Of a stretch of DNA of 64,000 nucleotides, positions 44,946 through 63,356 are shown piece after piece (positions within the stretch are counted from its first letter, which is position 1; every line of letters starts with the position of its first letter). The stretch is taken from positions 44,971-108,970 of IMG/VR virus record IMGVR_UViG_3300002141_000152; one strand, written 5' to 3'. Both the position numbers and the translations under genes were made by a program. The notes beneath the pieces were generated by a model. That model made no database searches. It was not told the DNA's origin and saw nothing but the letters and a program-made list of their open reading frames with translations. The stretch comes from a virus.

Positions 44946-45242
44946 CACTCCCACTCGGCCACTAACTAATAAAATAGAGAAGGTAAAGTGGCAGACAGCC
45001 CTAATAATTCTACTACTCATATTATTATCAACGCTAGAGAGACTACACTAGACCAGAGTCACCCAGCTAGAAGAGACTCGGTAGAACCACCTAGTAGCAG
45101 CCAAGTCAGGTACCTTCACTACGGAGTCCCGGCTACCAAGAGACCGACTAGACCTAGGAGACCCGACACCGAAGGTTACACCTCCACTACGGAGTCCAGT
45201 GACCAGACACTAGTCGGCCATTGACCAGTCACCATACCAGGA

Positions 45243-45309
45243 GTCGCCAACCCTAATACGAGACGGTGGCCAACCTCAATACGAGAAGTCGCCAACCTCA
45301 ATACCTGGC
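45243..45309 (+). repeat. Tandem repeat, three units of about 22 bp
   Basis: Units begin GTCGCCAACC or GTGGCCAACC and continue with AATACGAGA; the third diverges at its end. Confidence 0.7.
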
Positions 45310-45460
45310 AGCGCCCTAATTTGTAATGCAAAGCGCGGGCGTCCGCCTACTTTCACTACGGAGTCCCAAGAAAAACGCGTGCCACCGACTATCAACACTT
45401 GCCACCTGTGGCATGTTGCTACCAGGTGCTACTCTTTCCAGATTGTGGCATGCTCGGCGG

Positions 45461-45473
45461 GATAAATAAAAAG
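45461..45473 (+). promoter_or_regulatory. Late promoter of the recombinase
   Basis: GATAAATAAAAAG, 13 bp before the ATG at 45487. Confidence 0.6.
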
Positions 45474-45486
45474 AAAGAAGTAACTT

Positions 45487-46176
45487 ATGTACGCAAACGA
45501 AGCAATCGACTTGCTGGGGTGCAGCTATAACGGCCTACGTAAGTGGGGCAGCCGTGGCAAGATACGCCGGTGGAAGGACGACCATGGCAAGTGGATCTAT
45601 AACGACGATGACGTCTGGTCGATGATCGGCAAGCGGGTCTCAAAAGAAAGCCTGACGACCATCTACTGTCGAGTAGCCGGGACTACGGAGTCCGACCGCA
45701 AGGTCATGGCCGAGCAGCAGCGGATACTCCACCAATGGTGCTCTGCTCGTGGACTCTCAGTAGACAGGCAGTACGAGGACTGGGCCCCATCTACGGAGTA
45801 CTCCCTGGAGGAGAGACCTGGTCTGCACCTCTTGCTACAGGATATAATTCAAAAGCGTGTCTCCGCCGTGGTGGTCGAGACTCCTGACAGGCTGGCTCGT
45901 ATTGGTCGAGAGTTGATCGAACAGCTCTGCCGTTACTACGGAGTCCAGCTCGTGTATGTAAATAGGGTGATTCAAAAACCCGAGTACCTAGCCGAGCAGG
46001 AGGCAGATATTCTCAGGCTCCTAAAGAAGGCCAAGATTGAGAGACTAGCTGAGGTTGGTGTCGAGACCCTGCCTAGACCAAAGAAGGTAAAGTTAAAGGA
46101 TCCAGGCAAGATTGTGCCGACTTGGGAGGGTGAACCCTTACCTGCTAATTCGCGAGACTTGAGTGACTTGATATAA
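45487..46176 (+). CDS. Serine recombinase with MerR-like HTH (IS607 TnpA type), catalytic Ser apparently lost
   Basis: 229 residues. A MerR-like HTH (residues 1-50) is followed by a resolvase domain: TIYCRVAGTTES, DWAPSTEYSLEERPGL, VVVETPDRLARIGRELIEQL and YGVQLVYVNR match IS607 transposases. In active family members the first motif reads YCRVS; here Ser is replaced by Ala-Gly, and the residues GTTES are encoded by one CTACGGAGT repeat. No tnpB partner is visible. GC-rich and late-promoted. May be inactive or repurposed. Confidence 0.78.
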   Translation: MYANEAIDLLGCSYNGLRKWGSRGKIRRWKDDHGKWIYNDDDVWSMIGKRVSKESLTTIYCRVAGTTESDRKVMAEQQRILHQWCSARGLSVDRQYEDWAPSTEYSLEERPGLHLLLQDIIQKRVSAVVVETPDRLARIGRELIEQLCRYYGVQLVYVNRVIQKPEYLAEQEADILRLLKKAKIERLAEVGVETLPRPKKVKLKDPGKIVPTWEGEPLPANSRDLSDLI

Positions 46177-46192
46177 TTCAATTTTGGAGAAA

Positions 46193-46687
46193 TTAAAGAA
46201 GAGAGGAATCATGTACAAAGATAAAATCAAAGGTCAGCACAGAGTCAATTTCGCTGTGGCCATAGAGAGCCTGCTGAATTGCAGTGTCTAGGTCTTCCTC
46301 CGCTAGATCACTTGCGATGGTTAAGATAAATTTATAGAGAGGCTTGCCATAGTAAAGAGATCGATACTTGTCGGATCTAGTCCCCTCTGATCCCTCAAAC
46401 TGGACGTCGGAGACGAGACTCCGGTCGACAGTAGAGACGCTGTCTGCAACAAGTTCAACAAACTGGTCGATGTCTATTTCTTCTAGTGGCAAATTGTGCC
46501 GCATGCGAACGCCAAGAGTGACCTTGTACCTCCACTCAAAATCTTCTGATTGGAGTGGAATCCCGGACTCCTTAGCTAGGGTAACGTATTCACTCTTGCT
46601 AATGAGTCCACTGGTTAAGAGGTCACGTAAGACCTGCTCCTCGTCGTCTCGTGATTCCCGAAGATACCTCTTAAATGACTTTAACAT
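46193..46687 (-). CDS. Putative packaged protein with targeting and SHOCT-like segments
   Basis: 164 residues. LKSFKRYLRE followed by S, then EEQVLRDLLTSGLISKSEY as in 36434-38341. The body is beta-rich. Codons are GC-richer than in its relatives, so it may have come from another phage. Late promoter at 46707-46714. Confidence 0.65.
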   Translation of the reverse strand: MLKSFKRYLRESRDDEEQVLRDLLTSGLISKSEYVTLAKESGIPLQSEDFEWRYKVTLGVRMRHNLPLEEIDIDQFVELVADSVSTVDRSLVSDVQFEGSEGTRSDKYRSLYYGKPLYKFILTIASDLAEEDLDTAIQQALYGHSEIDSVLTFDFIFVHDSSLL

Positions 46688-46706
46688 TGACTATTAGTTA
46701 TTTTAA

Positions 46707-46714
46707 TTATTTAT
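46707..46714 (-). promoter_or_regulatory. Late promoter
   Basis: Minus-strand ATAAATAA, 19 bp before the ATG at 46687. Confidence 0.6.
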
Positions 46715-46725
46715 CCAGGGCGCCC

Positions 46726-46734
46726 TATAAATAA
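46726..46734 (+). promoter_or_regulatory. Late promoter, T4 consensus
   Basis: TATAAATAA, 14 bp before the ATG at 46749, followed by an AAAAGG possible ribosome site. Confidence 0.7.
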
Positions 46735-46748
46735 AAATAAAAAAGGAA

Positions 46749-46898
46749 ATGGCCAAGAAATCCACCAACTCTGCCACTGCTACAGCAGTCAGGGTTAAAG
46801 TTAAGAAGAAGAGACCGGGTGTACACTCGAAAACCAAGTGTGATGTGAACAAGCGAAGCAAACACTGGGTCAAACTGAGTAGAGGACAGGGTAAGTAA
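46749..46898 (+). CDS. 49-residue highly basic protein
   Basis: AKKSTNSATATAVRVKVKKK then RPGVHSKTKCDVNKRSKH; about a third Lys/Arg. Strong late promoter. Suited to binding packaged DNA or RNA; no family recognised. Confidence 0.6.
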   Translation: MAKKSTNSATATAVRVKVKKKRPGVHSKTKCDVNKRSKHWVKLSRGQGK

Positions 46899-47186
46899 TC
46901 CAGTTCTTCAGTCCGTTATTTAGAAGGGAGCCTCAGACGGGACTCCCTTCGCCAGTTATATTGATACTTTAGTTGAGGGTCGGAGTCACTCCTGTGTCGC
47001 GAGTTGAGGTGACTTTAGGTACTGAGCCGGCTGGAAAAGTGTCTCTACGCCAGAGTGGTCTGGGCTCCATGGCTGCGGGTGAGTCCAAGGCTCCCGCGGG
47101 CAGGGGATTTGCCAGAGACCCGACCGGCGCCACTAGCCAGAGACGCTAGCACGCACCCGCCTGCGGGGAGCCGTCCCTTACTCCAT
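46899..47186. other. GC-rich non-coding module
   Basis: Between the basic protein and the terminator of 47234. Contains two CAGAGAC words (47113, 47138); the second is exactly the loop of a CTAGC/GCTAG hairpin (47133-47149). No gene seen. Confidence 0.5.
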
Positions 47187-47212
47187 AAAAAAGCCCGCGA
47201 TTAAGCGGGCTC
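47187..47212 (-). terminator. Terminator of the 47234 gene
   Basis: GCCCGC/GCGGGC stem, 6-nt loop, T6 on the minus strand. Confidence 0.9.
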
Positions 47213-47233
47213 TTACGGTCGTCAAACCAATAC

Positions 47234-48415
47234 CTACAGTGTCGCGAATTGTGCGAATTGCAAGTCGTATCCGTCCTTAGTACCTTTACCGAAAAGGTGT
47301 CCAGCTTGTTCTTTCAATTGGTGTTTGTTCTCCAATTGCAGGCCGGAATTGTTGGAACCAAGGAATGTCATTGAGTTTACCACGTCCCAAATACTTTGGC
47401 CGGTCTTGATAAAGCTCTTCTGCTTATCGTTCAATCTCATTGGGTCTTGTCCTTTGCGTACGATACGTCCCATAGTCTCAGCATGTGAGTGGAAGTATTT
47501 ACGAGCAACGGTGTCGATGAATGCTTTCTTCAGGGTTGGGTCGTCTTCTCGAACCATTCGTTGTGAGCTAATCATGGCATTCTCGACTTCAAGCAAGCTT
47601 GCTTTTGTATTCACAGCGGACTCTAGTGCGGTGTTGAAACCTACCGGAATAAAACCAGCTTTATTCATTGTCTCAATACGTCCAAGGAAATTCTTAATAT
47701 CGTCGGCACTTGTTCCACCTAGGCGAAACTTCTCTTCGAAATTAATATCACGGTTTGCACCGATCGCACCTTGTCCTAAGCTTACACGAAGTCCATTGCT
47801 ACATACCAATCTCTGATTGTACATTTCAACTGTCGTGTCTTTAGAAGACTGAATAATCGAGAAACCAAATTTAAAGAACTCGTCTTTACCGGCTCCAGGA
47901 AAACCTACCTCTTCTCCATTCAGCAAGTTGATAACTGTTTTTCCACTATGTGGATTGAAGTCAATTGTCTCGATACTTAAGTTTGAGTTACCATTCATAA
48001 TACGAGATGTCATATCAAAAACAGTTTCATTGGTCATTCTACGAAAACGTTTAGGATCGCAGATGTCAATAATTTCGCGACTTGTTGGGCTAGCAATCAA
48101 CATGATTTCTGTACCTCCATGCGCTTGACGATAGGATTTCAAGCCATTCAATAAACTTGTAGCAATCTTGCCGTCCTCGTTCTTAATCATCTCACGAGTT
48201 AAGGACTGATTTACCTTTAGCATTCCTGCTAATTTTTGAAAGAATCCTTGGCCAACAGGTACAGCTTGTCCGCTGACGTTGATTGTTCCTCGTGCGATGG
48301 AGTTGTCGTCCAGCTCGATTGCGCCTAGTGGCACGGTTTTTGTAATACACTCAGCTTTTGCGAGTGTCTCGCGAATCTGTTCGAATTCGTGGTCTGATAC
48401 TTCTTTTTTTGCCAT
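47234..48415 (-). CDS. DUF932-like protein
   Basis: 393 residues. SIETIDFNPHSGKTVINLL and NQRLVCSNGLRVSLGQG resemble the conserved core of DUF932 phage/plasmid proteins, whose role is unknown (some are linked to DNA metabolism or anti-restriction loci). Precedes the terminator at 47187 and has a class-2 promoter at 48434-48462. Confidence 0.6.
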   Translation of the reverse strand: MAKKEVSDHEFEQIRETLAKAECITKTVPLGAIELDDNSIARGTINVSGQAVPVGQGFFQKLAGMLKVNQSLTREMIKNEDGKIATSLLNGLKSYRQAHGGTEIMLIASPTSREIIDICDPKRFRRMTNETVFDMTSRIMNGNSNLSIETIDFNPHSGKTVINLLNGEEVGFPGAGKDEFFKFGFSIIQSSKDTTVEMYNQRLVCSNGLRVSLGQGAIGANRDINFEEKFRLGGTSADDIKNFLGRIETMNKAGFIPVGFNTALESAVNTKASLLEVENAMISSQRMVREDDPTLKKAFIDTVARKYFHSHAETMGRIVRKGQDPMRLNDKQKSFIKTGQSIWDVVNSMTFLGSNNSGLQLENKHQLKEQAGHLFGKGTKDGYDLQFAQFATL

Positions 48416-48433
48416 GATAAGATTTTTTTTAAA

Positions 48434-48462
48434 TTGGTTTGACTTAATTATAATACTAAAAA
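48434..48462 (-). promoter_or_regulatory. Class-2 (TATAAT-type) promoter
   Basis: Minus-strand TTTTTAGTATTATAATTAAG and GTCAAACCAA; same 29 bp as 49627-49655. Confidence 0.7.
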
Positions 48463-48496
48463 CTTACTACATTTTAAAACTATTGTATACAAATAT

Positions 48497-49612
48497 TTAT
48501 TCCTGTTTCGCAGGTTCTTCTACGGAGTCCACCGTTTCTGGCTTCTTAGTAAGGAAGATTTCTTCAAACTTACGAGTCAGGTCGTGTTGGCGTATTGACT
48601 CCTTGTTCTCAATCTTATTCATCTCCTCACTTTCAGTGTATCGTTCTGAATCGTAAACTACTGCACCCTGTTTATCAAGCGTGTAATATAATCTCTTGTT
48701 TACTCCGCCACCACCTCGACGATTTTTTGAAAACTCAACATATCGATTACCACTTAGGTCAAAACGAATTTCAAGCATGGCAGTCGTTGCGTGTTTTAGG
48801 TAGGTGCTACCGACATAGGTACCTCCTTTGGTCATGTGTTGAATTGCCAAGACCGCGCAGCCATCTTTTTCAGCAGCAGTAATCATCATGCCAGTTAACC
48901 AAGACTCGGCTTGCGTTGATTTCCATTGCTGTGCTTCTTTCAATTTTACTAGAACATCTTGGTAGGAGTCAAGCACAATAATATCATAACCTCCATTGAA
49001 GGCTACCGATAATACTTCACTCAGCTTTCCGTTAGCAATATAGTCCATCAGCAATAGTGTTGGTACCTTACCGATTGATGGAGTTTTCTTGTAGTAAAAC
49101 AGGATATCATTACGGGTCATTTCACTTGATATATAAAGTATCTTTGCCTCAGGATTGGTGTCCTGTACAGAAGAAAGAACGTCTAATAAGATAGTCGACT
49201 TGCCGACACCCGACTCACCAATTACAATATTAACAGTTCCACCATAGACTCCACCGCCAGGTTCATGGTCCGAGAAGAGGTCATCGATCTTTTTGCCAGT
49301 CTTGTGCAACTTGAATTCAGGAAAGACGAGGTCTTCTACTTTAATAACGTTCGGCACGATTGGGACTACGGAGTCCAGCTCGACTGCACTCACATCAGTT
49401 TTGGTTTCGCGCACTCCGCCTTCTGCTAGGATTTTCTTCAGTACTCCATTAAAGAGTCCATACGAAACTTCTTCATCGAGTGCAGCGCCGACTCGATTTT
49501 CAAAATCGATAAATGAGTCTAACACTTTACCTCGCGGTACCTTGCCGTCGTGCGACTTGTTAATCCATCGACGAACACTCTGTTCTTTTTTACCGCCCTT
49601 AATTTCTATCAT
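48497..49612 (-). CDS. RecA-fold ATPase (RadA/helicase-like)
   Basis: 371 residues. Walker A is GESGVGKST near 130, ILYISSEM follows, Walker B is DIIVLDSYQD, and AVLAIQHMTKGGTY then LEIRFDLSGNRYVEFSKNRR gives the late strands of a RecA core. The closest patterns are RadA/DnaB-like ATPases; it may act as the phage replicative helicase or a recombination ATPase. A CTACGGAGT repeat encodes DSV in two places. Confidence 0.75.
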   Translation of the reverse strand: MIEIKGGKKEQSVRRWINKSHDGKVPRGKVLDSFIDFENRVGAALDEEVSYGLFNGVLKKILAEGGVRETKTDVSAVELDSVVPIVPNVIKVEDLVFPEFKLHKTGKKIDDLFSDHEPGGGVYGGTVNIVIGESGVGKSTILLDVLSSVQDTNPEAKILYISSEMTRNDILFYYKKTPSIGKVPTLLLMDYIANGKLSEVLSVAFNGGYDIIVLDSYQDVLVKLKEAQQWKSTQAESWLTGMMITAAEKDGCAVLAIQHMTKGGTYVGSTYLKHATTAMLEIRFDLSGNRYVEFSKNRRGGGGVNKRLYYTLDKQGAVVYDSERYTESEEMNKIENKESIRQHDLTRKFEEIFLTKKPETVDSVEEPAKQE

Positions 49613-49626
49613 AGTTTTAGATTTTA

Positions 49627-49655
49627 TTGGTTTGACTTAATTATAATACTAAAAA
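49627..49655 (-). promoter_or_regulatory. Class-2 (TATAAT-type) promoter
   Basis: Identical 29-bp core to 48434-48462, 15 bp before the ATG at 49612. Confidence 0.7.
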
Positions 49656-49676
49656 ACTGAAGATTTATAAAACTTA

Positions 49677-50165
49677 TTACAAACTTTCTTTTGACAATTC
49701 ATCAAGTCTAATGCGCTCAGTATTTGATAAATTAGTAAGACCTACCTTACTGACAAGATCGAGCAACTGATCTAGCGATAGCTTCACCTCAACTCTAGCT
49801 TCTACTGGAATATCCTCAGCTAGGGGTTCAGGTGTCGTGCCTTTCTTAATCTCCCGAGTCAGTAACTCAAATGCCTTACTTACAGCTGGTCCAAAGTCTT
49901 CGGAATTTATTGCAAAACCGGGAGAAGTCGTGTCCATTACAAGTACAGGTAGCCTATCGCCGGTTCCCTTGCCGACTTCATAGAATCCTTCGGCTATCTT
50001 TGTCGGGCTCCAATCAGTATAGATTAAAGTTATCATACCCTTATTTGGAACTGGTATGCCGAGTGCTAGGCGAGCGTTGCAGCCTGCAATTGCGGCAAGC
50101 AGTGGCATCTCATTACCGACAGGTGCGTCCTTGCCGAACCTGAATATTAGAACTATTCTTTTCAT
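49677..50165 (-). CDS. Unknown early protein
   Basis: 162 residues. MKRIVLIFRFGKDAPVGNEM and ITLIYTDWSPTKIAEGFYEV suggest an alpha/beta fold; helical C-terminus. No family recognised. Follows 50171 by 5 bp. Confidence 0.6.
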   Translation of the reverse strand: MKRIVLIFRFGKDAPVGNEMPLLAAIAGCNARLALGIPVPNKGMITLIYTDWSPTKIAEGFYEVGKGTGDRLPVLVMDTTSPGFAINSEDFGPAVSKAFELLTREIKKGTTPEPLAEDIPVEARVEVKLSLDQLLDLVSKVGLTNLSNTERIRLDELSKESL

Positions 50166-50170
50166 ATTAT

Positions 50171-50518
50171 TTAGAATTTATAAAGTAAAATAACTCTATT
50201 GATAAAATTATCAAAGTCATCTTTTGTAATTTGATCAGGTCTCACTGGATAAGGATTGAGGCACATCATCATGTCTCTCTCTTCACGTGCAGTATTTGCT
50301 GCAGTTGGATATGGTGTTGCATCGTGCCATAATTGTACTAAATCCTGATCATAATAGATTACGACAATTGGTGGCTCTTGATCTGGAATCGGATTTGGAC
50401 TAACTGAACACTGGAAAAAGTTTCCAAACTCTTCATCTGGGCCATTCTCTTGCGCGGAATCAAGATCGATTAATAGATCTACTCCAAATAATTCTTGTAA
50501 TTTAGTGTGGGTTGTCAT
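50171..50518 (-). CDS. Unknown early protein
   Basis: 115 residues, acidic (LIDLDSAQENGPDEEFGN) with IVVIYYDQDLVQLWHD near the middle. First gene of a two-gene early unit with 49677. Confidence 0.6.
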   Translation of the reverse strand: MTTHTKLQELFGVDLLIDLDSAQENGPDEEFGNFFQCSVSPNPIPDQEPPIVVIYYDQDLVQLWHDATPYPTAANTAREERDMMMCLNPYPVRPDQITKDDFDNFINRVILLYKF

Positions 50519-50540
50519 GTGTGTTTAAGTTTTAATATTG

Positions 50541-50581
50541 AGTAAATGTAATAAATTAGTTTGACACTAAAAAATCGGGGC
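50541..50581 (-). promoter_or_regulatory. Early promoter module
   Basis: GCCCCGATTTTTTAGTGTC ... ATTTACTC; drives 50171. Confidence 0.75.
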
Positions 50582-50584
50582 AAA

Positions 50585-50809
50585 TTAAAACCAGCTCTTA
50601 CAATTATAGCATTTAGATGAGTCATCTACTTTGTATGCGCCAATTCTCCAAAACCACTTTTCAGTATTTCCTGGGTCAACGGCCGATGCATATACTTCGC
50701 GCGCTCCACAGTGTGGACACTGCAGCCCCTGTTTGTCAGGCTTCTCTCCGCATTTTTCAATAATTGCAGATTTAATTGATTCTTCTAAAATCTCAGATAG
50801 TGTATCCAT
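50585..50809 (-). CDS. Zinc-ribbon protein
   Basis: 74 residues from Met at 50809; the longer frame would run through the promoter. CPHCGAREV and CYNCKSWF form a four-Cys zinc ribbon with a helical N-terminus. Confidence 0.65.
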   Translation of the reverse strand: MDTLSEILEESIKSAIIEKCGEKPDKQGLQCPHCGAREVYASAVDPGNTEKWFWRIGAYKVDDSSKCYNCKSWF

Positions 50810-50829
50810 ATGTCTTGTTTTTAATGTTA

Positions 50830-50870
50830 AGTAAATATAACTACTTATGTTGACACTAAAAAATCGGGGC
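50830..50870 (-). promoter_or_regulatory. Early promoter module
   Basis: Standard module; fixes the start of the zinc-ribbon gene at 50809. Confidence 0.75.
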
Positions 50871-50875
50871 AAAAT

Positions 50876-50962
50876 ATTTTTTTCGCCGCGAGTGGGTCTC
50901 TATCAGAGACGCGCCCAGCGCACGCCGAAAGCAGAGACGCCACGGATCCACTCGCGGCCGGT
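50876..50962 (-). ncRNA. Structured GC-rich spacer
   Basis: Perfect 10-bp inverted repeat CCGCGAGTGG (50886-50895) and CCACTCGCGG (50948-50957) enclosing GTCTCT-ATC-AGAGAC and another CAGAGAC. Lies between terminator and promoter. 17 bp of it (CGCCGCGAGTGGGTCTC) recur inside the gene at 52528. Confidence 0.5.
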
Positions 50963-50972
50963 TTTTTAAAAC

Positions 50973-51001
50973 AAAAAAAGCTCCAATCTCTTGGAGCTTT
51001 T
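50973..51001 (-). terminator. Terminator of the 51022 gene
   Basis: GCTCCAA/TTGGAGC stem, 4-nt loop, T7 on the minus strand. Confidence 0.9.
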
Positions 51002-51021
51002 GATAAGTCAGTATTTAATTG

Positions 51022-51420
51022 TTATTCAATTAGGGTTTGTGGATTACGATTATTATATGTTGCAAATACCCATTTATCTTCCTTAGTAAGAAGATACCCA
51101 TACTCTTCAATATCTCCATGGAAGAATTCATCAACGCTTGCATGATCGGCGGCACCTGTTCCTAACTCTCCACGGTCACGATGATATGCAACAACTACAC
51201 CACCTTGTGGGTTAGAAAATGAATGCGGACCTGTCGGGGATATCTCTTCGCTAAGTGAGGATATATCACCTAACTTAATTAGGGCTCTAACCTTCTCCCG
51301 ATCAGTGTAAAAGTTATTTAGGATTCTACCATTATGGTCAAGGTAGCCATCGTTGTGGCAGTAAATAGATTTAACCTTTCCGTCTGGTAATTCGATTGCG
51401 ATTCTGCTTCTTGTTGACAT
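51022..51420 (-). CDS. Conserved phage protein of unknown function
   Basis: 132 residues. MSTRSRIAIELPDGKVKSIY, HNDGYLDHNGRIL and VAYHRDRGELG are signatures of a family common in phages of many hosts. Function unknown. Confidence 0.75.
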   Translation of the reverse strand: MSTRSRIAIELPDGKVKSIYCHNDGYLDHNGRILNNFYTDREKVRALIKLGDISSLSEEISPTGPHSFSNPQGGVVVAYHRDRGELGTGAADHASVDEFFHGDIEEYGYLLTKEDKWVFATYNNRNPQTLIE

Positions 51421-51440
51421 AACTTATAGTTTTAATGTTG

Positions 51441-53037: not shown

Positions 53038-53051
53038 TTACTACGGAGTAA
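53038..53051. repeat. CTACGGAGT hairpin repeat before a start codon
   Basis: TTACT-ACGG-AGTAA; on the minus strand it ends 2 bp before the ATG at 53036. Confidence 0.75.
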
Positions 53052-53781: not shown

Positions 53782-53795
53782 TTACTACGGAGTTA
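53782..53795. repeat. CTACGGAGT hairpin repeat between sigma gene stop and next start
   Basis: TTACT-ACGG-AGTTA fills the gap between the sigma-factor stop codon and the next GTG. Confidence 0.75.
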
Positions 53796-54509
53796 AATAA
53801 CTTCTTTCATTTTTTGTATAGCACTCTTCACGATTTGTGATACTCTAACATTCGTTATATCGAAACGCTCAGCGATAACATCAGTCGGTAGTTCACAGTC
53901 TCGACCAATACCGAAATAGGCAGATACGATATTACGATCGCGTTCTTTAAGTACGCCCAACACTCTGCGAATCGTGTATTGCACCTGGTCTACTTCCATT
54001 TGAAACTCGGATTCATGTGGAGTATTAAGTAGAATATCTCCAATTGTGGTGTCGCTGTCGACTGAAATAGGTGCATCAATTTCAACAGTCGACAAGTTTG
54101 GTGTTTCTATTCCAGCCATCTTAGCTTTATAGATATCGTACTCCTGATTATGCGGTAGTCGAACAATACGACCGTGTGCAACGACTGCTTCATTAATACG
54201 CTTGCGTACCCATAATCCAGCGTAGGCTACAAATCGCGTATTGGATTTAGGTTCGAACCGTTGTGCAGCTTCGTATAATCCAATATTACCTTCTTGTATG
54301 AGGTCATCGATTGGAACTCCTTGGCCAACGTGCCGATTTGCAATAGTCACAACTATTTTTAAGTTGTGCTGCACCAATTTATGGATGGCAGCCTGGTCTC
54401 CGGCTTTAATACTGAGTGCCAACCCTTTTTCTTCTTCGATTGTAAGTGGATTCATTTTAGAAATCGACTTAAAATACTTTGGTAAATTGTCTGATGTTTC
54501 GAATGACAT
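53793..54509 (-). CDS. RNA polymerase sigma factor, sigma-70 type
   Basis: 238 residues. DNLPKYFKSISKMNPLTIEE is region 1.2; DDLIQEGNIGLYEAAQRFEP and FVAYAGLWVRKRINEAV are regions 2.1-2.4; GRIVRLPHNQEY begins region 3; and VLKERDRNIVSAYFGIG through VRVSQIVKSAIQKM is region 4. It resembles primary sigma factors of Bacteroidetes rather than T4 gp55. Early-promoted, so it may reprogram transcription to later phage promoters. Confidence 0.9.
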   Translation of the reverse strand: MSFETSDNLPKYFKSISKMNPLTIEEEKGLALSIKAGDQAAIHKLVQHNLKIVVTIANRHVGQGVPIDDLIQEGNIGLYEAAQRFEPKSNTRFVAYAGLWVRKRINEAVVAHGRIVRLPHNQEYDIYKAKMAGIETPNLSTVEIDAPISVDSDTTIGDILLNTPHESEFQMEVDQVQYTIRRVLGVLKERDRNIVSAYFGIGRDCELPTDVIAERFDITNVRVSQIVKSAIQKMKEVI

Positions 54510-55544: not shown

Positions 55545-55868
55545 TTATAATTGTTTCTCTAAATCGATTAGAACACTACATAACTCGTATTGTTCGCTGT
55601 CTGTAAAATACGTTAAACAATCCTGCAACCAGCGTGGGTACTCGTCTCTAGCAATGTTCACTACGGAGTCCGAGTCTTTTACTGCAAATGCAGGTACTAT
55701 CGATAGATTCCCTGTGATACCATTATATAGGGCTGAAAGAAATGCAGCGTGTACTGCAGCATGCTCTCCTTCCATGAATTCTTTAATATCTCGGTATGGA
55801 GAAGCATCTAACTCTGGAATTTCAAAGTCAGTATCTAATTCTTCGACATACTGAATAATATAATTCAT
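55545..55868 (-). CDS. Unknown early protein
   Basis: 107 residues, acidic and helical. A CTACGGAGT repeat (55660) encodes DSVV inside it. Overlaps its upstream neighbour by 4 bp. Confidence 0.55.
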   Translation of the reverse strand: MNYIIQYVEELDTDFEIPELDASPYRDIKEFMEGEHAAVHAAFLSALYNGITGNLSIVPAFAVKDSDSVVNIARDEYPRWLQDCLTYFTDSEQYELCSVLIDLEKQL

Positions 55869-56454: not shown

Positions 56455-56457
56455 GGC

Positions 56458-56640: not shown

Positions 56641-56661
56641 AATATATAAGTTTTAATGTTG

Positions 56662-56933: not shown

Positions 56934-56938
56934 TCTAT

Positions 56939-57226: not shown

Positions 57227-57251
57227 TTTAGTTTTTAAGTTTTAATTATAG

Positions 57252-57292
57252 AGTAAATATAACTAATAGCCCCGACCTGTAACAATCGGGGC
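57252..57292 (-). promoter_or_regulatory. Early promoter module with full stem-loop
   Basis: AGCCCCGA/TCGGGGCT forms an 8-bp stem just before TATATTTACT. Confidence 0.8.
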
Positions 57293-57302
57293 TAGAATAT
57301 TT

Positions 57303-57312
57303 ACTACGGAGT
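57303..57312. repeat. CTACGGAGT repeat after a stop codon
   Basis: ACTACGGAGT overlaps the last base of the 57312 gene's stop. Confidence 0.7.
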
Positions 57313-57947
57313 TAAGCTGCTAATTGCTTAGGGTCAACTGGGCCAGACATCCATGCTCCACGGCGACCGCTCATCTTCGTCGGGTACCAACTGTATAACT
57401 TCTTTAAGATTAGTGTTGCTTCTTTCTGGAATTCGCGCAACTCCCGGTTCCATCGCTTCTCTGCAAGTTTGTCAATTGCTGCCGCAACACTCTTGCCTCT
57501 AGCATCATACCATGCTCGACGGTCTTCTAATTCAAACTCGGCATCCTCTAAAAACGTTTCGAATTTAAAAGTCGGAATTACCGCAATTGGAAGGTGCGAG
57601 TATTCTGCACTCGTCTCAGTAATAACGTATACTCGTTGACCTTCTGCTAGGATAAGACCCTCATTTCGAAAGGCACTGGATAATTCTTCATATCCATTGG
57701 CTCGAGATTGCAAGTCCCATGGGGTCAATCTTAGTTCTGATGCTAGACACTCTGCCAGGTCTTCGAAACCAAACTCAGACTGTTGGTCAACCTCCGCATA
57801 AACATCATCATCATCTGGTTCTTTACCAAACTCTTCTGCAAGTCTTTCTTTCACCGAGTCAAAGTCCTCGCTGAGGTCAATAAAGTAAGTGTTGGGTTCG
57901 AACTTATCATTGTCGAACGATCGTAAGTGTGGATTGCCTGCGCCCAT
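57312..57947 (-). CDS. Unknown early protein
   Basis: 211 residues, acidic in the N-terminal half (GKEPDDDDVYAEVDQ) and helical/basic in the C-terminal half. No family recognised. Confidence 0.6.
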   Translation of the reverse strand: MGAGNPHLRSFDNDKFEPNTYFIDLSEDFDSVKERLAEEFGKEPDDDDVYAEVDQQSEFGFEDLAECLASELRLTPWDLQSRANGYEELSSAFRNEGLILAEGQRVYVITETSAEYSHLPIAVIPTFKFETFLEDAEFELEDRRAWYDARGKSVAAAIDKLAEKRWNRELREFQKEATLILKKLYSWYPTKMSGRRGAWMSGPVDPKQLAA

Positions 57948-57976
57948 AGTTTTGTAGTTTTAGTTTTTAATTATAG

Positions 57977-58012
57977 AGTAAATGTAACAAATTAATTTGA
58001 CACTAAAAAATT
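57977..58012 (-). promoter_or_regulatory. Early promoter module lacking the GCCCCG element
   Basis: TTTTTTAGTGTC and TACATTTACTC kept; upstream element absent. Confidence 0.6.
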
Positions 58013-58214
58013 ACTGTAAATATATTTTTAAACATTTTTCACATCCAATGTGTTCTACGTTTTCAATTCTAGCATGGTTTGAACTTAACATTGGTGTTCC
58101 ACACAACGTTGTTCCACTAAATGTACCTGCTTGGGCAATGTGGGCTGTGTTGCTCCAAACATTTCCTTTGTTGCCGAACATGTAAAAATTTTCTTTTAAG
58201 TCTGCTGTTTTCAT
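58011..58214 (-). CDS. Small early protein with Cys pair
   Basis: 67 residues; the C-terminal IENVEHIGCEKCLKIYL has CxxC and an upstream His/Cys, a possible metal site. Confidence 0.55.
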   Translation of the reverse strand: MKTADLKENFYMFGNKGNVWSNTAHIAQAGTFSGTTLCGTPMLSSNHARIENVEHIGCEKCLKIYLQ

Positions 58215-58236
58215 CTTTTATAGTTTTTAATTATAG

Positions 58237-58277
58237 AGTAAATATAACTAATTAGTTTGACACGAGAAAATCGGGGC
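58237..58277 (-). promoter_or_regulatory. Early promoter module
   Basis: Full module for 58011. Confidence 0.75.
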
Positions 58278-58352
58278 ACAAAAATTATCTTGTCCCTGGC
58301 CAGATCGAACATCTCTGTCAGAGACTCTTCCCAGCCATCCGTGGATTTGGTC
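58278..58352 (-). other. GC-rich non-coding module
   Basis: CAGAGAC at 58319 within TCTCT-GTC-AGAGA hairpin. Confidence 0.5.
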
Positions 58353-58379
58353 AAAAAAAAGACCAGCAATCGCTGGTCT
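58353..58379 (-). terminator. Terminator of the 58443 gene
   Basis: AGACCAGC/GCTGGTCT stem, 4-nt loop, T8. Confidence 0.9.
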
Positions 58380-58442
58380 CCTTAGGTCAATTTCTTGGTG
58401 GCGGCACCTTTACCCGGCCGTGACCCGCACTTAGGAAGCTCT

Positions 58443-58652
58443 TTATGCTTCGATAATGTCCGCTTCGCTAACTTCGAATGTAAAAATCTCAAAGTCTTCA
58501 TCAATCGTTTCTTCGCTATACTCATACTCCAGTAACAGTTCGCGTGTACACTTCTCAGCATGGTCCATTGTTTCGGCCTTGATGTGGAAGATAATTGGAC
58601 TGCGGAATGTTCCTTGGAAATCTGTAACTACTGTGCAAAATAATCTTTTCAT
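58443..58652 (-). CDS. Small early protein
   Basis: 69 residues from ATG 58652 (KRLFCTVVTDFQGTF); a longer frame would enter the promoter. Acidic C-terminus. No family recognised. Confidence 0.55.
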   Translation of the reverse strand: MKRLFCTVVTDFQGTFRSPIIFHIKAETMDHAEKCTRELLLEYEYSEETIDEDFEIFTFEVSEADIIEA

Positions 58653-58677
58653 AATTTCTAGTTTTAATTGGTTATGA

Positions 58678-58718
58678 AGTAAATATAACAAATTAGATTG
58701 AACTCTTAAAATCGGGGC
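58678..58718 (-). promoter_or_regulatory. Early promoter module
   Basis: GCCCCGATTTTAAGAGTTC variant. Confidence 0.7.
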
Positions 58719-58721
58719 AAA

Positions 58722-58952
58722 TTACTTAATGTTTCTATCCGGTGGGTGATATAATTCTTCTAATTTATCTAAAACCTCACTCGAACTATCCGCATCATGG
58801 TGTAATATAATATCTAGAATGATTTCACGCCAAGTGGTTGGCTCCTTTGTAACACTAACCTCCTCTGGTCTTAGCGCACGTTGCGCTTCTTTGTATGCTT
58901 CAAATGTCCCATATTCATCTAAAATTTCTTGATATTTTTCGTTTGAGTTCAT
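58722..58952 (-). CDS. Small early protein
   Basis: 76 residues, helical acidic. No early module directly upstream, so it may be read through from 58975. Confidence 0.5.
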   Translation of the reverse strand: MNSNEKYQEILDEYGTFEAYKEAQRALRPEEVSVTKEPTTWREIILDIILHHDADSSSEVLDKLEELYHPPDRNIK

Positions 58953-58974
58953 ATATTTTTTAAATTTTTATTTA

Positions 58975-59283
58975 CTAATTTAGGTCAGATGTATCTGGAA
59001 TCATACACGCTCCAAATTCACTTACTCCGCTTGCTGCGACTTCCGATATAAGTGCCATTGATGCTGTTAAAAATCTGTACAAATCTAATACTTCTCTACG
59101 ATCCTTTACAGACAGTCGTGAAAATGCTTTACTTACTATAAACTCTTCCTGTTCAGATATTTTCATCTGCATTTCAATCAACGTTGCTACTTTCGACCCA
59201 GGAATAATTTGTGGCATTTCATCTTTAACTCTAGGTTTACGTTCTGGTTTATCCCAGCTACATTTGAATCCTACTTTGCTCAT
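58975..59283 (-). CDS. Small early protein
   Basis: 102 residues. Basic start, long helix (EEFIVSKAFSRLSVKDRREV), small-residue C-terminus. No family recognised. Confidence 0.5.
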   Translation of the reverse strand: MSKVGFKCSWDKPERKPRVKDEMPQIIPGSKVATLIEMQMKISEQEEFIVSKAFSRLSVKDRREVLDLYRFLTASMALISEVAASGVSEFGACMIPDTSDLN

Positions 59284-59309
59284 AGCTTTATATTTTTAAT
59301 TAGTTATGA

Positions 59310-59350
59310 TGTAAATATAACACATTAGGTTGACACTAAAAAAATCAGGA
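59310..59350 (-). promoter_or_regulatory. Early promoter module
   Basis: CTCCTGATTTTTTTAGTGTC variant. Confidence 0.65.
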
Positions 59351-59407
59351 GAATAATAATTTAGCAGAGACCCACTCGCCCGGCAGATGTCAAGCTGCAG
59401 TTCAGCT
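59351..59407 (-). other. GC-rich non-coding module
   Basis: CAGAGAC at 59365 next to GCGAGTGGGTCTCT, shared with the module at 50876. Confidence 0.5.
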
Positions 59408-59437
59408 AAAACAAGAAAGGAGCAGATACCTCTGCCC
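59408..59437 (-). terminator. Terminator
   Basis: GGGGCAGA/TCTGCTCC stem with a 4-nt loop, then TTTCTTGTTTT. Confidence 0.75.
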
Positions 59438-59461
59438 CAATCCCGAACTTAAACCATGCTA

Positions 59462-59475
59462 TTACTACGGAGTAA
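59462..59475. repeat. CTACGGAGT hairpin repeat
   Basis: TTACT-ACGG-AGTAA downstream of the 59481 gene. Confidence 0.75.
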
Positions 59476-59480
59476 ACCGG

Positions 59481-59735
59481 TTATTTTCCTTTTGCATCAT
59501 TATATAGCTGTGCAGCCGTATCATAATCAAAATTTGAACTGAGTATTGCTCCTATCTCCATTGAGAAATTGGTATGAAAAAATTTTAGTGTCTTTGGTGT
59601 TGTGTTTACGTATGGAATTACAGTGTGCAGCACACGCATCCGCTCTCTGATTCCTAGCTTCTTTAGGTAGCTTCTTACCTGCTGCTCAGCTCCTGTCTGT
59701 AGGAGGTTGCTTATTTGTATTGGGCTCATTCGCAT
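59481..59735 (-). CDS. Small early protein
   Basis: 84 residues, helical; QVRSYLKKLGIRERMRVLHT. Lies just downstream of the tRNA-like element B. No family recognised. Confidence 0.5.
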   Translation of the reverse strand: MRMSPIQISNLLQTGAEQQVRSYLKKLGIRERMRVLHTVIPYVNTTPKTLKFFHTNFSMEIGAILSSNFDYDTAAQLYNDAKGK

Positions 59736-59759
59736 AGTAGTTTAGTTCAACCTATAGAG

Positions 59760-59877
59760 TAGTCAGGACAGGATTCGAACCTGTATTTACACTTTACTTG
59801 TATTAGCTGTGTCCGATAGATTGGGTATCAATACATTTCCCTCACTACCTGCTCTTAACCATTAGAGCTACCTGACT
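59760..59877 (-). tRNA. tRNA-like element B with enlarged anticodon domain
   Basis: 118 nt. Acceptor AGTCAGG/CCTGACT, discriminator A, perfect D-arm (GCTC/GAGC with TAATGGTTAA), consensus T-arm ACAGG TTCGAAT CCTGT. Between D- and T-arm there are 66 nt instead of about 23: GGTAG/CTATC can close a 25-nt loop and ACAC/GTGT a long variable arm. No anticodon can be assigned and there is no encoded CCA. An intron-like insertion or a decoy are possibilities. Confidence 0.55.
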
Positions 59878-59902
59878 ATTTAATTATTATACTAACCTTA
59901 GT

Positions 59903-60181
59903 CTAATCATTTATAAAAAGAAATTTAAACTCGGCAATTACTGGCGTCTTGCCTCTATACCACCAACCTGCAATATCCTCTCCACTATCTGACGAGTCTA
60001 CCTTAAATCGGGTCATCTTTACCTGACCTCCTGTTCTAGGATTCTTCACATAGATCGGGGCTCCTTCAAAACATAGGTTAGTAATTTCAAAGCGAGTCTG
60101 CTCTAGGCTAGACAGCTCTGCGACAAACGTTCTGTCTGCTGGGTCAAATGTAATTGCTGGGTGTGTTACGTCTATTATCAT
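59903..60181 (-). CDS. Small early protein
   Basis: 92 residues, all-beta; RTFVAELSSLEQTRFEI and the repeated aromatic strands. No family recognised. Confidence 0.5.
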   Translation of the reverse strand: MIIDVTHPAITFDPADRTFVAELSSLEQTRFEITNLCFEGAPIYVKNPRTGGQVKMTRFKVDSSDSGEDIAGWWYRGKTPVIAEFKFLFIND

Positions 60182-60202
60182 AGTCTTTCGGTTTTTAAGT
60201 TA

Positions 60203-60242
60203 AGTAAATATAACTATAATCTTTGACATAATAAAATCAGGA
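60203..60242 (-). promoter_or_regulatory. Early promoter module
   Basis: TCCTGATTTTATTATGTC variant with TATATTTACTT. Confidence 0.65.
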
Positions 60243-60334
60243 TAATAATAGTGCATCCGCAGCCAGTGCCGGCGTGTGAGTCTCTACCTAAAAAGCAGAG
60301 ACACTCTTGCTGGCGGCCTAGCGGGTGGACAAAG
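60243..60334 (-). other. GC-rich non-coding module
   Basis: GAGTCTCT and AGAGACACTC can pair around an A-rich loop; CAGAGAC at 60296. Confidence 0.5.
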
Positions 60335-60361
60335 AAAAAGGCGGGAACCACCCCGCCTTTT
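60335..60361 (-). terminator. Terminator of the 60384 gene
   Basis: AAGGCGGG/CCCGCCTT stem, 6-nt loop, T5. Confidence 0.9.
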
Positions 60362-60383
60362 GCTAACTTAAACTTAAAACTAA

Positions 60384-60806
60384 CTAACCAAAAACTATCT
60401 TCTTATAAAATACTGTTTGAATAATACAGTCTGCTGTGTCTGCATCATCTCGCTCTTCAATCGCATCCATCAAGTGGTGGATAGGAGTTTTTGCAACTCG
60501 CGAGTGCACATCCTTTAGGGTTATCTTCTTATCTCCAACGGCGTTCTCTTCGTCTACCATGATAAGGGTTCCACCGGTTCGTAGGATTTCCATCCAAATA
60601 TCTTCGCAGCATATTCGGGTCATCTTCTCTCCACATGAGTCAATTGCAGTTCCTGCTTTCATCTTTGTGTGAAGACTCTTCTTCGCAAGTTTATAATCCT
60701 TTTCAGAATAATCTAGGTGTATTCCATAATATCTGATTTGGCTGCCGTTACATAACGCATTGTGGAAATGTTTTTCGGCTTCTGCTTTTTCTAATACTAT
60801 TTTCAT
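60384..60806 (-). CDS. Unknown early protein
   Basis: 140 residues. YYGIHLDYSEKDYKLAKKSL and ICCEDIWMEILRTGGTLIMV suggest an alpha/beta fold; TADCII near the end. No family recognised. Confidence 0.55.
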   Translation of the reverse strand: MKIVLEKAEAEKHFHNALCNGSQIRYYGIHLDYSEKDYKLAKKSLHTKMKAGTAIDSCGEKMTRICCEDIWMEILRTGGTLIMVDEENAVGDKKITLKDVHSRVAKTPIHHLMDAIEERDDADTADCIIQTVFYKKIVFG

Positions 60807-60828
60807 GGGTTTTAAGTTTTAATTATAG

Positions 60829-60869
60829 AGTAAATATAACTATTAAATGTGACACTAGAAAATCGGGGT
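60829..60869 (-). promoter_or_regulatory. Early promoter module
   Basis: CCCCGATTTTCTAGTGTC variant. Confidence 0.7.
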
Positions 60870-61216
60870 TAAAGATTATTTAATTTAATGTTACGTTTTT
60901 CAACATATTTTAAGCTACCGAAATTTTTCCAGCGAAAAACCCATTCGATTTCTCTTAGTGACTCTTTGCCATACGTCTTGGAAATTTTAGTCTCTATTCG
61001 ATCCACCTTTTTACTCCACTTATTAATATCGTGACTGCCCTCATTGATTGCCGCTAGCAGCATGTCTCTTTCTCCTGCCGGCCGGACACAGTAATACTCT
61101 TCTCTCCAGTCTGAAATATTCTGGCCCATTGCATCTATTTTTCTGGTTAGTCGATACACTTCTTTTACTAGCAAGTTGCTTGCGTAAAGTGTCGGTATTT
61201 TCTTTTTAGATTTCAT
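60869..61216 (-). CDS. Unknown early protein
   Basis: 115 residues, basic and helical (KSKKKIPTLYASNLLVKEVY). No family recognised. Confidence 0.5.
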   Translation of the reverse strand: MKSKKKIPTLYASNLLVKEVYRLTRKIDAMGQNISDWREEYYCVRPAGERDMLLAAINEGSHDINKWSKKVDRIETKISKTYGKESLREIEWVFRWKNFGSLKYVEKRNIKLNNL

Positions 61217-61236
61217 AGGTCAAGTTTTTAATGTTA

Positions 61237-61281
61237 AGTAAATATAACTAAAAACCACCAAGATAAAAAATCCTGGTGGCC
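61237..61281 (-). promoter_or_regulatory. Early promoter fused to a true terminator stem-loop
   Basis: CCACCAGGAT-TTTTT-ATCTTGGTGG (10-bp stem) plus T5, directly followed by TATATTTACTT: terminator and promoter in one cassette. Confidence 0.8.
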
Positions 61282-61295
61282 AAAGTTATGAACAA

Positions 61296-61496
61296 TTAAT
61301 CTTTCACCTCTACATAGTTTCCTGCATCATTAAAGTTACTCATCCACAGGGAAAGGATTCGACGAGCCTCTGACTTTTCAAGTCCAAACTCTTCAATTAC
61401 ATAGGGTGTGGCACCAAACATATTGGTCGCACCACTCTCTCGTAGGGAGTTAAGGAATTCCATTACTTCTTTTTCTGATTGGGTTGTTTTTCTCAT
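61296..61496 (-). CDS. Small early protein
   Basis: 66 residues, helical; REEF-type N-terminus and RRILSLWMSNF. Possibly a compact HTH. Confidence 0.5.
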   Translation of the reverse strand: MRKTTQSEKEVMEFLNSLRESGATNMFGATPYVIEEFGLEKSEARRILSLWMSNFNDAGNYVEVKD

Positions 61497-61517
61497 AGTC
61501 TTTAGGTTTTTAAGTTA

Positions 61518-61558
61518 AGTAAATATAACACAATATATTTGCACCGAACAATCGGGGC
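61518..61558 (-). promoter_or_regulatory. Early promoter module
   Basis: GCCCCGATTGTTCGGTGC variant. Confidence 0.7.
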
Positions 61559-61559
61559 C

Positions 61560-61694
61560 AAAGTATTTTCAATTACAGTCCACTCTTGGTTGAGCTCTTG
61601 GCGCCATGCGGGTGGGCGCTCTCTGAAGTCCGACGGGCAGGCGTTCACTACGGAGTCCAGCTGAGACACCACTGGATCCGCCGCACAGGAAACC
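61560..61694 (-). other. GC-rich non-coding module
   Basis: One CTACGGAGT copy (61646) inside; an open frame across it overlaps the promoter and is not credited. Confidence 0.45.
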
Positions 61695-61726
61695 AAAAAA
61701 AAGCCGGAACTAGTCCGACTCTTTTT
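61695..61726 (-). terminator. Terminator
   Basis: AGTCGGA/TCCGGCT stem, loop near CTAG, T8. Confidence 0.85.
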
Positions 61727-61865
61727 AACGCTAGTCCCGTTATCTCCGCTATAGGAAAGTATGAAAACTTATAGCATCATAGACAATTACATAACCACCA
61801 TAGCTGACCTACTTCTTCTTCGCTTTTTTATAATATTGGTAATGAGGACTCTTATGTATATTTAT

Positions 61866-62129
61866 TTATTTTATTACTAAATAATATAATCCACCGGCTG
61901 GCGTGTCATCGTCTCCATTAAAGAAATGATATATTTGACCCCTGCTGTCGGTAACTATAAAATTCATACAATACAAAGGAATCAACTTTTCAGGTAGCTG
62001 CACCGACTCTCCAATAAGAGTGTCAAGTTTACGCTGCACCTTTGCTCTACGGTTTACACCAAGCTGGGCTTTCCACCTGAACTTGATATACTGGTCTCCA
62101 GTTACGGGATGGGTTTTCCAATTTGCCAT
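61866..62129 (-). CDS. Small early protein
   Basis: 87 residues, basic N-terminus (FRWKAQLGVNRRAKVQRKL) then a beta C-terminus. Ends 1 bp from 62131. No family recognised. Confidence 0.5.
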   Translation of the reverse strand: MANWKTHPVTGDQYIKFRWKAQLGVNRRAKVQRKLDTLIGESVQLPEKLIPLYCMNFIVTDSRGQIYHFFNGDDDTPAGGLYYLVIK

Positions 62130-62130
62130 G

Positions 62131-62346
62131 TTATCTTGGGATTAGGTGAAGTAACTCTTGGTGTAGGATCTCTGGGTCTTCGTCATATCTTCCGTCTTCC
62201 CATGCAGTGACTAGGGATTTAAGATTCTTATTATTCTTGTTGGTGACTCCGCTGGTCCGAGCTCTCGCTAACTGGTCAGCTGGTGTAGATATCCAGGTTC
62301 CCATCTCTAGTAGCATGCACTCTAGTGTAATAGTTGTTTTTGCCAT
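62131..62346 (-). CDS. Small early protein
   Basis: 71 residues; helical, ends in LLHLIPR. First gene of a pair with 61866. Confidence 0.5.
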   Translation of the reverse strand: MAKTTITLECMLLEMGTWISTPADQLARARTSGVTNKNNKNLKSLVTAWEDGRYDEDPEILHQELLHLIPR

Positions 62347-62367
62347 AGTCTTTAGGTTTTTAAGTTA

Positions 62368-62408
62368 AGTAAATATAAAACAATTATTCCACACCCAAAA
62401 ATCAGGGC
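62368..62408 (-). promoter_or_regulatory. Early promoter module
   Basis: GCCCTGATTTTTGGGTGT variant. Confidence 0.65.
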
Positions 62409-62409
62409 T

Positions 62410-62477
62410 AAAATTATTTTTTAGCAGAGACGTTTCACACGCCGGTCAGGTAACACTCTTACTACGGAGTAGACATG
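62410..62477 (-). other. GC-rich non-coding module
   Basis: CAGAGAC at 62425 and CTACGGAGT at 62461 between terminator and promoter. Confidence 0.5.
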
Positions 62478-62503
62478 AAAAAAGGCCGGATAAAAATCCG
62501 ACC
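62478..62503 (-). terminator. Terminator of the 62531 gene
   Basis: AGGTCGGAT/ATCCGGCCT stem with T4 loop and T6. Confidence 0.9.
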
Positions 62504-62530
62504 TCTAATCAACTTAAACCTAATGTTCTC

Positions 62531-62839
62531 TTACTCGTCGAGTCTGGCTAATGCGTTACTAATTTCAATTGCTGCTTGTGCTGTCTCAACCAAACGCTGC
62601 CCACCGATATGCCACTCTATCTCCTCGTCATCGGCAATTCGGCGATATTCTTTCCAATCATACACGGTAAATGGGGCGCCTCCATCGGTCTCCATTTCCC
62701 ATTCGAAATTGACCTTATCTCCACTATCGTTGCACTCATACGCGGGCTGACCTAGTATCTGGCGTAGCTGGCTTACTGTTGCATGGATTACTGTGCTGTG
62801 GAAGCTTGTTCCGTTTACTGATTTTGTTGTTGGCTTCAT
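62531..62839 (-). CDS. Small early protein
   Basis: 102 residues from ATG 62839; a longer frame runs through the promoter. SQLRQILGQPAY and KVNFEWEMETDGGAPFTVYD are seen in phage proteins of unknown role. Confidence 0.55.
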   Translation of the reverse strand: MKPTTKSVNGTSFHSTVIHATVSQLRQILGQPAYECNDSGDKVNFEWEMETDGGAPFTVYDWKEYRRIADDEEIEWHIGGQRLVETAQAAIEISNALARLDE

Positions 62840-62860
62840 AGTTTTAGTTTTTAAGTTATA

Positions 62861-62902
62861 AGTAAATATAACAATAATACTATAACACCCAAAAATCGGG
62901 GC
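62861..62902 (-). promoter_or_regulatory. Early promoter module
   Basis: GCCCCGATTTTTGGGTGT variant. Confidence 0.7.
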
Positions 62903-62907
62903 TAGAA

Positions 62908-63150
62908 TTAATTTACTTGAAATACACTCTTTGCTCTTGGGTTTCCGTCCTGGTCCATCACCCACAGTCTCCCATTGACGAGGCAATAGTGTACACTATG
63001 GAGTAACGGATGCTCTGACTGGATTGTGACCAGGCTATGCTCCTCGCCAGCGACTCTGATTGTGGTTAGGATATTAAGTTCCTCCTTCCCAAGGAGAACT
63101 GTCGGGAACTTCACAGGTTCCTCTTGATTTAGATATTCGGTTAGTGTCAT
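62908..63150 (-). CDS. Small early protein
   Basis: 80 residues from ATG 63150, one base after the stop of 63152. Beta-rich. Contains a decayed repeat copy (ACTATGGAGT at 62995). Confidence 0.55.
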   Translation of the reverse strand: MTLTEYLNQEEPVKFPTVLLGKEELNILTTIRVAGEEHSLVTIQSEHPLLHSVHYCLVNGRLWVMDQDGNPRAKSVFQVN

Positions 63151-63151
63151 A

Positions 63152-63322
63152 TTATTTTTTTGATTTAACAAGGTTAATGTACTTCATCTCATAATCTTCT
63201 GCCAATAGTGGATTACTCTTCCTAAGAGTGGTTATCGCATGTATCACTTCTGCACCGGTTTTTGTTCCGTGTCTGAAGCCTAATAGTGCTCCAATTACTT
63301 TCTTCTCTAAATGTTCTGACAT
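63152..63322 (-). CDS. 56-residue early protein
   Basis: ATG at 63322: MSEHLEKKVIGALLGFRHG then a helical, basic C-terminus. Tight TAATATG junction to 62908 supports translation. Confidence 0.55.
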   Translation of the reverse strand: MSEHLEKKVIGALLGFRHGTKTGAEVIHAITTLRKSNPLLAEDYEMKYINLVKSKK

Positions 63323-63342
63323 GCTTTTATTTTAAATAATTA

Positions 63343-63356
63343 CTACTACGGAGTAA
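63343..63356. repeat. CTACGGAGT hairpin repeat
   Basis: CTACT-ACGG-AGTAA between the 63363 stop and the next start. Confidence 0.7.

Follow-up and report, generated by a model that had tools for sequence, protein, structure and literature searches.

A co-oriented 10-bp word repeated in one block of huge-phage genomes and its proposed binding by a TnpA-like protein lacking the catalytic serine

The DNA analyzed here, referred to as the window, is a stretch of 64,000 nucleotides forming the last 64 kb of a 108,970-base virus record (IMG/VR record IMGVR_UViG_3300002141_000152; G000:C1:44971-108970). It carries 16 exact copies of the word CTACGGAGT, all on the plus strand and within the range 45119-63354; 100 dinucleotide-preserving shuffles of the window gave an expectation of 0.22 and a maximum of two copies per shuffle. 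The copies read ACTACGGAGT in 14 of the 16 cases and TCTACGGAGT in the other two, and as the genes between 46 and 64 kb run on the minus strand, the gene-sense form of the word is ACTCCGTAGT. The whole record has 16 forward and no reverse copies of CTACGGAGT, all within its last 19 kb; the initial 45 kb of the window and the 45 kb of the record preceding it are free of the word. A preliminary description of this DNA had given 16 copies exclusively at 45-64 kb, none in the first 45 kb, a decayed copy at 62995 and a chance expectation far below one. All of this is borne out, its copy coordinates being correct to within two bases, and with every copy in the last 19 kb rather than at equal density genome-wide, the feature is real.

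In their ACTCCGTAGT form all of the sites lie on the minus strand. Three of them (45118..45127, 45186..45195 and 45355..45364) are found upstream of a gene for an IS607-TnpA-like protein (45487..46176, plus strand), the third being 123 base pairs (bp) before its start codon. A further three lie within this gene, namely 45682..45691 at +204, which overlaps TTES codons just past the former catalytic position, 45790..45799 (TCTACGGAGT on the plus strand) and 45935..45944, which is in another reading frame. Next to it is a gene of unknown function encoding 393 amino acids (47234..48415, minus strand), which is conserved across the clade between the TnpA-like gene and a gene for a RecA/DnaB-type ATPase (48497..49612, minus strand). 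The latter, RecA-like gene has one site in its C-terminal tail (48519..48528, TCTACGGAGT on the plus strand) and another in its variable linker (49365..49374). Beyond these, a site at 53040..53049 sits between a stop codon and the next start codon, while 53784..53793 and 57303..57312 overlap stop codons, the former that of a gene for a sigma-70-type phage factor with regions 1.2, 2 and 4 (53793-54509, minus strand). This sigma factor could be a transcription factor for the site-bearing block. The site at 55660..55669 is in a small gene, those at 59464..59473 and 63345..63354 are intergenic, 62461..62470 directly follows a terminator-like hairpin with a T run, and a further exact copy is at 61647..61656. 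The decayed copy (62995..63004, also minus strand) reads ACTATGGAGT on the plus strand. The GC content is 43-46% across 44001-48000, which contains the TnpA-like gene and the site cluster upstream of it, compared with approximately 35% in the first 44 kb.

A scan of IMG/VR with the RecA-like protein (48497-49612) identified 27 related loci, in records that are metagenomic and partly fragmentary. On whole-record counts, ACTCCGTAGT is present in 13 of 17 of these related records, in essentially one orientation in each. Most records of the window's lineage have 7-16 copies, and a sister lineage has 4-12 copies of ACTCCCTAGT, again in a single orientation. The genomes L166, L167 and L022 are mixed, possessing both core forms. 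The idea of lineage-specific core "keys" (CCGT or CCCT) was dropped for this reason; with several genomes mixing both, position 6 of the core is simply G or C. The site block extends over about 8-27 kb in the stretches examined, from records of up to 271 kb, and its dispersed sites are approximately 2 kb apart.

The positions of the sites are well conserved. Genomes G003 and G005 are approximately 70-76% identical where alignable, and 8 of 8 motifs in the alignable stretches are kept in place against a background of 9.7% identical 10-mers, with other genome pairs agreeing. In the RecA-like gene, the site persists within a hypervariable linker as the neighboring codons change, and most relatives have a site in the same linker. 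Based on simple open reading frame (ORF) calls, 76 of 140 sites (54%) are intergenic compared with 28 (20%) expected. As judged from these comparisons, purifying selection acts on the sites as DNA-level elements. It had also been suggested that copies inside genes often encode DSVV; this applies to those at 49365 and 55660, whereas that at 48519 gives DSVE. As the DNA-level site is conserved while codons change, and over half of the sites are intergenic, this encoding is an incidental by-product of the DNA word.

With each record oriented by its sites, 140 copies are forward and one is reverse over 12 records. The relation of this orientation to the genes is best seen in G007 and G008, in which genes have the same order and strands along most of the region between the structural genes and the RecA-like gene, except for a small local inversion near 30.6-35.6 kb of G007. 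The minus strand carries all 16 G007 sites and the plus strand all nine G008 sites. The RecA linker site of G007 (93305-93314) is accordingly on the minus strand, with the variant ACTCCGTAGC on the plus strand at that place in G008, and a second opposite-strand pair follows the G007 gene 77679-77987 and the G008 gene 117619-117891. Overall, 40 of the 140 sites run antisense to their closest gene, as do 13 of 16 in G007. As all sites of G007 are reversed with gene order and strands unchanged, their orientation is set between the sites and not by transcription; on this evidence it appears independent of both transcription and the genome axis, and common to all sites of a genome. There is no sign in G007 of a flip in replication direction, its base skew following the genes and not being reversed. 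A tyrosine recombinase domain is found at the end of the G007 record (G007:C1:126601-127032) and was seen only in this site-reversed lineage.

The consensus of the sites is KK-ACTCC[G/C]TAGT-MMM, with G/T favored just before the core and A/C just after. The preliminary description had proposed a hairpin with covarying outer pairs. A Watson-Crick pair is present at flanking position 1 in only 6 of the 16 window copies (3.8 on average in shuffles, p 0.12), and over 205 clade sites there is a slight excess of pairing at flanking positions 1 and 2 (84 vs. 71 and 87 vs. 67, respectively), with none beyond the second. The slight excess at two positions therefore stands, but a conserved stem does not, and the flank signal is better described, from these counts, as a short dyad preference (K, K before and M, M, M after).

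The TnpA-like protein (229 amino acids) possesses an N-terminal helix-turn-helix (HTH)-like region and a serine-recombinase fold, and is the proposed binder of the sites. It matches the Pfam families Resolvase and HTH_17, and NCBIfam transpos_IS607 is matched by 12 of 12 members. Its profile matches in the PDB are 3lhk, 3lhf, 6dgc, 3ilx and 6dgb, and its AlphaFold model (mean pLDDT 76) gives Foldseek TMt values of 0.69-0.77 to the IS607-type catalytic-domain chains of these same entries. One homolog weakly matches the RacA model. In the window protein, the catalytic serine of the YxRVS motif is replaced by Ala64 (YCRVA). The distinct homologs examined have YCRVA/P/N, YSRVD, YVRVG, YTRVG, YCRAA, YARAA, YTRSA or YCRTA, so that the serine is gone in every homolog with a readable motif; the fold is kept, as is DRLAR or a close variant in most. 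A single-sequence scan found no close relatives, and a profile search gave 24 loci. Of 16 records with sites, 15 contain the gene, with one copy per record, and it encodes the sole Resolvase-domain protein in 10 of 11 records. The exception in both cases is G008, the record of which stops just past the RecA-like gene, before the expected position of the TnpA-like gene. Features of an IS607 transposon were not apparent: no transposon ends were recognized, the gene is a single one in a syntenic place beside the RecA-like and 393-amino acid genes, and no tnpB was recognized among the neighboring ORFs, where no dedicated search for it was made.

Sites are concentrated at this gene. The 500 bp upstream of its start codon hold 40 sites in 15 genomes compared with 6.1 at background density (Poisson p ~1e-19), and as orthologous sites are not independent, such small p-values overstate significance. 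In contrast, only two sites in 11 genomes were found upstream of the RecA-like gene. In the sister lineage, 2-5 tandem sites lie just upstream of the TnpA-like gene at a distance of 57-58 bp from each other, or approximately 5.5 helical turns (at 10.5 bp per turn). The spacers of these arrays in G010, G013, G014, and G016 are G-rich on the site strand and otherwise not conserved. A site within the gene is also found in most genomes, at +204 or +149, with codons and frames differing between the two lineages (TTES and LGS). In the window's lineage, the +204 site encodes TTES directly past the former active-site position (RVAG-TTES-DR), while L167 has a site at the same place in another reading frame (RVA-VLGSR). 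In scans of IMG/VR and of bacterial genomes, pairs of sites 56-58 bp apart occurred mainly with a TnpA-like protein, in viral contigs and in a contig of a Bacteroidetes metagenome-assembled genome (L238) discussed below; a few short or flank-limited viral loci with such pairs were not assessable.

It is proposed, with a probability of roughly 0.6, that the repeated word is bound by a phage protein which descends from an IS607-type TnpA, has lost its catalytic serine and now functions in autoregulation and DNA bridging. A protein-binding site was among the possibilities raised in the preliminary description and is well supported at sequence level; binding by the TnpA-like protein is predicted here from co-occurrence, clustering at its gene and conservation. 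Dimers of the TnpA of IS1535 bind cooperatively to helically phased 9-bp direct repeats, each through one DNA-binding domain; the protein then spreads, and its free domains pair another end in parallel, the dimers being in a form that is not suited to catalysis (PMC6188088). The phage protein may retain this IS607 TnpA behavior without the chemistry, its dimers nucleating on short direct repeats, spreading and capturing a second DNA in parallel. It would regulate its own gene by way of the +149/+204 site and the array upstream, and would bridge co-oriented sites at intervals of some 2 kb to form a nucleoprotein complex spanning about 10-27 kb. The likely consequence would be silencing or timing control of the gene block, or else compaction or centromere-like handling of the phage DNA. 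Parallel capture by a dead TnpA would require the sites to agree in direction, with gene direction being irrelevant, as is observed. A bolder version, in which the dead transposase is an organizer of the huge-phage genome that nucleates at a tandem array next to its own gene and ties co-oriented sites together in parallel register over about 10-27 kb, the whole set having to share one orientation and having been reversed in concert in one lineage, is tentative and judged less likely than not.

A number of points weigh against the proposal of a TnpA-derived binder. The HTH match of the window protein is below the Pfam cut-off, and its NCBIfam IS607 score is 92.8 bits, below the cut-off of 110. 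The core ACT..C...AGT is partly dyad-symmetric, which the 9-bp direct repeats of IS607 elements need not be. Spreading or looping must be assumed, as the dispersed sites are approximately 2 kb apart compared with the ~10-bp phasing at IS1535 ends, and the regularity of their spacing is modest (p 0.016). Binding of the TnpA-like protein is itself predicted from sequence, and the RecA-like ATPase or the 393-amino acid protein could be the binder instead.

The alternative that survives best, although it is judged unlikely, is a stoperator-type system in which the sites are operators of a repressor, either the dead TnpA or another protein, blocking the initiation of transcription and its elongation across the block. 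The presence of many short asymmetric sites, of which over half are intergenic and which are often near stop codons, terminators and start codons, would agree with this, as would the sites ahead of the putative repressor's own gene. The repressor of cluster A mycobacteriophages, however, blocks through stoperators which are oriented with transcription and fail if reversed (PMC9283540). The antisense sites described above, above all those of G007, do not follow this requirement, and since orientation does not follow transcription, the polarity that defines stoperators is excluded. A non-polar repressor is possible and would merge with the proposed TnpA-derived binder.

Less probable again is a polar signal for DNA processing, of the Chi, KOPS, packaging or entry type, which a motor or nuclease would recognize in a single direction, perhaps with participation of the RecA-like ATPase. 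The strict one-way orientation irrespective of genes and the site in the RecA-like linker of most relatives are in its favor. Nevertheless, the sites are limited to a block of about 10-27 kb in genomes of up to 271 kb, and the gene at which they cluster is the TnpA-like one and not the RecA-like one. Measured against the entire syntenic genome common to G007 and G008, the orientation of the G007 sites is reversed, without reversal of the base skew.

Sites for recombination or cassette exchange, at which an active recombinase would shuffle small genes, had also been suggested and are now very improbable. Co-orientation is indeed a property of directly repeated recombination sites, and a gene with a serine-recombinase fold adjoins the densest site cluster. 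However, the catalytic serine is absent in all homologs examined, no second serine recombinase was detected, and just one of 11 records (G007) yielded a tyrosine recombinase domain. Furthermore, the sites are kept in place and are not at breakpoints between relatives: near-identical pairs had no pattern of cassette shuffling with breakpoints at sites, and diverged pairs keep their sites in place. Least probable of all is a miniature mobile hairpin, as in the preliminary description, or an RNA hairpin: apart from the ACT/AGT arms of 3 bp, which with the slight excess at two flanking positions are in its favor, pairing is weak, the covariation within the window is not significant, an Rfam scan gave no match, sites are mostly shared at orthologous places across approximately 70% identity with no clean insertions against empty sites seen, and in G007 the strand of the copies is reversed with respect to the same genes, which excludes an mRNA element or RNA hairpin. 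A tRNA scan also found nothing.

With regard to the host, a scan of bacterial genomes with the RecA-like protein found no relatives, and a scan of these genomes for the paired-site pattern yielded one contig of the clade, L238 (CAIWBA010000291.1, 254,203 bp), other pairs having mostly different spacings and no TnpA-like gene. L238 was binned in a Bacteroidetes metagenome-assembled genome and carries a dead TnpA, the end of a RecA-like gene and five array sites; it probably represents an almost complete phage of this clade. Genes for ribosomal protein S21 (bS21) were present in four of eight records tested (G008, G009, G010, and G013), and the clade possibly overlaps the published group of Bacteroidetes bS21 phages. 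The binning of L238 and the bS21 link suggest a Bacteroidota host. No integrases or resolvases were detected in the bS21 phages, for which pseudolysogeny has been suggested (PMC9723584), and it may be speculated that such a life style would be compatible with a system of repressor or centromere-like type. A large protein encoded at 7303-8886 of the window matches homing endonuclease and HNH endonuclease families.

If the proposed binding is correct, a serine transposase has, by losing its active site, been exapted in phages as a site-specific protein for DNA bridging or regulation. G007 represents a natural experiment in which a complete orthologous set of sites is reversed in one lineage, and the question of why sites must agree in direction becomes testable with one small protein and a 10-bp site. 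A literature search, with subscription literature outside its scope, found no description of a comparable system.

Several known systems do share some of its features. ParB-parS systems have clustered and dispersed sites, with nucleation and spreading. The phage sites are likewise clustered and dispersed, although the phage protein is not ParB-like; no ParA-type ATPase (PF13614) was detected in seven records, some of them possibly fragments, with a control that was positive in 14 of 14 genomes. The stoperators of cluster A phages are also short, asymmetric, numerous across a phage genome and predominantly intergenic (PMC9283540), but differ in that site orientation in the present clade is independent of transcription, and the proteins are unrelated in domain make-up. 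RacA and its ram sites in Bacillus subtilis offer an N-terminal HTH and dispersed sites that are dense in one region (PMC6593407), the HTH of RacA being MerR-like (PMC11242194). RacA condenses DNA both specifically and nonspecifically (PMC6593407), and condensation is proposed by analogy for the phage protein, which has a serine-recombinase domain where RacA has a coiled coil. The closest counterpart in protein family and fold is IS607-family TnpA on the ends of IS1535, where short, directly repeated asymmetric motifs also occur in multiple copies (PMC6188088). Unlike this TnpA, the phage protein has no catalytic serine, is encoded by one gene per record without recognized ends, and has its sites spread over about 10-27 kb. 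The IS1535 protein captures its partner DNA in parallel as a chemically inactive dimer (PMC6188088), and it is this capture that the phage protein is proposed, by analogy, to share.

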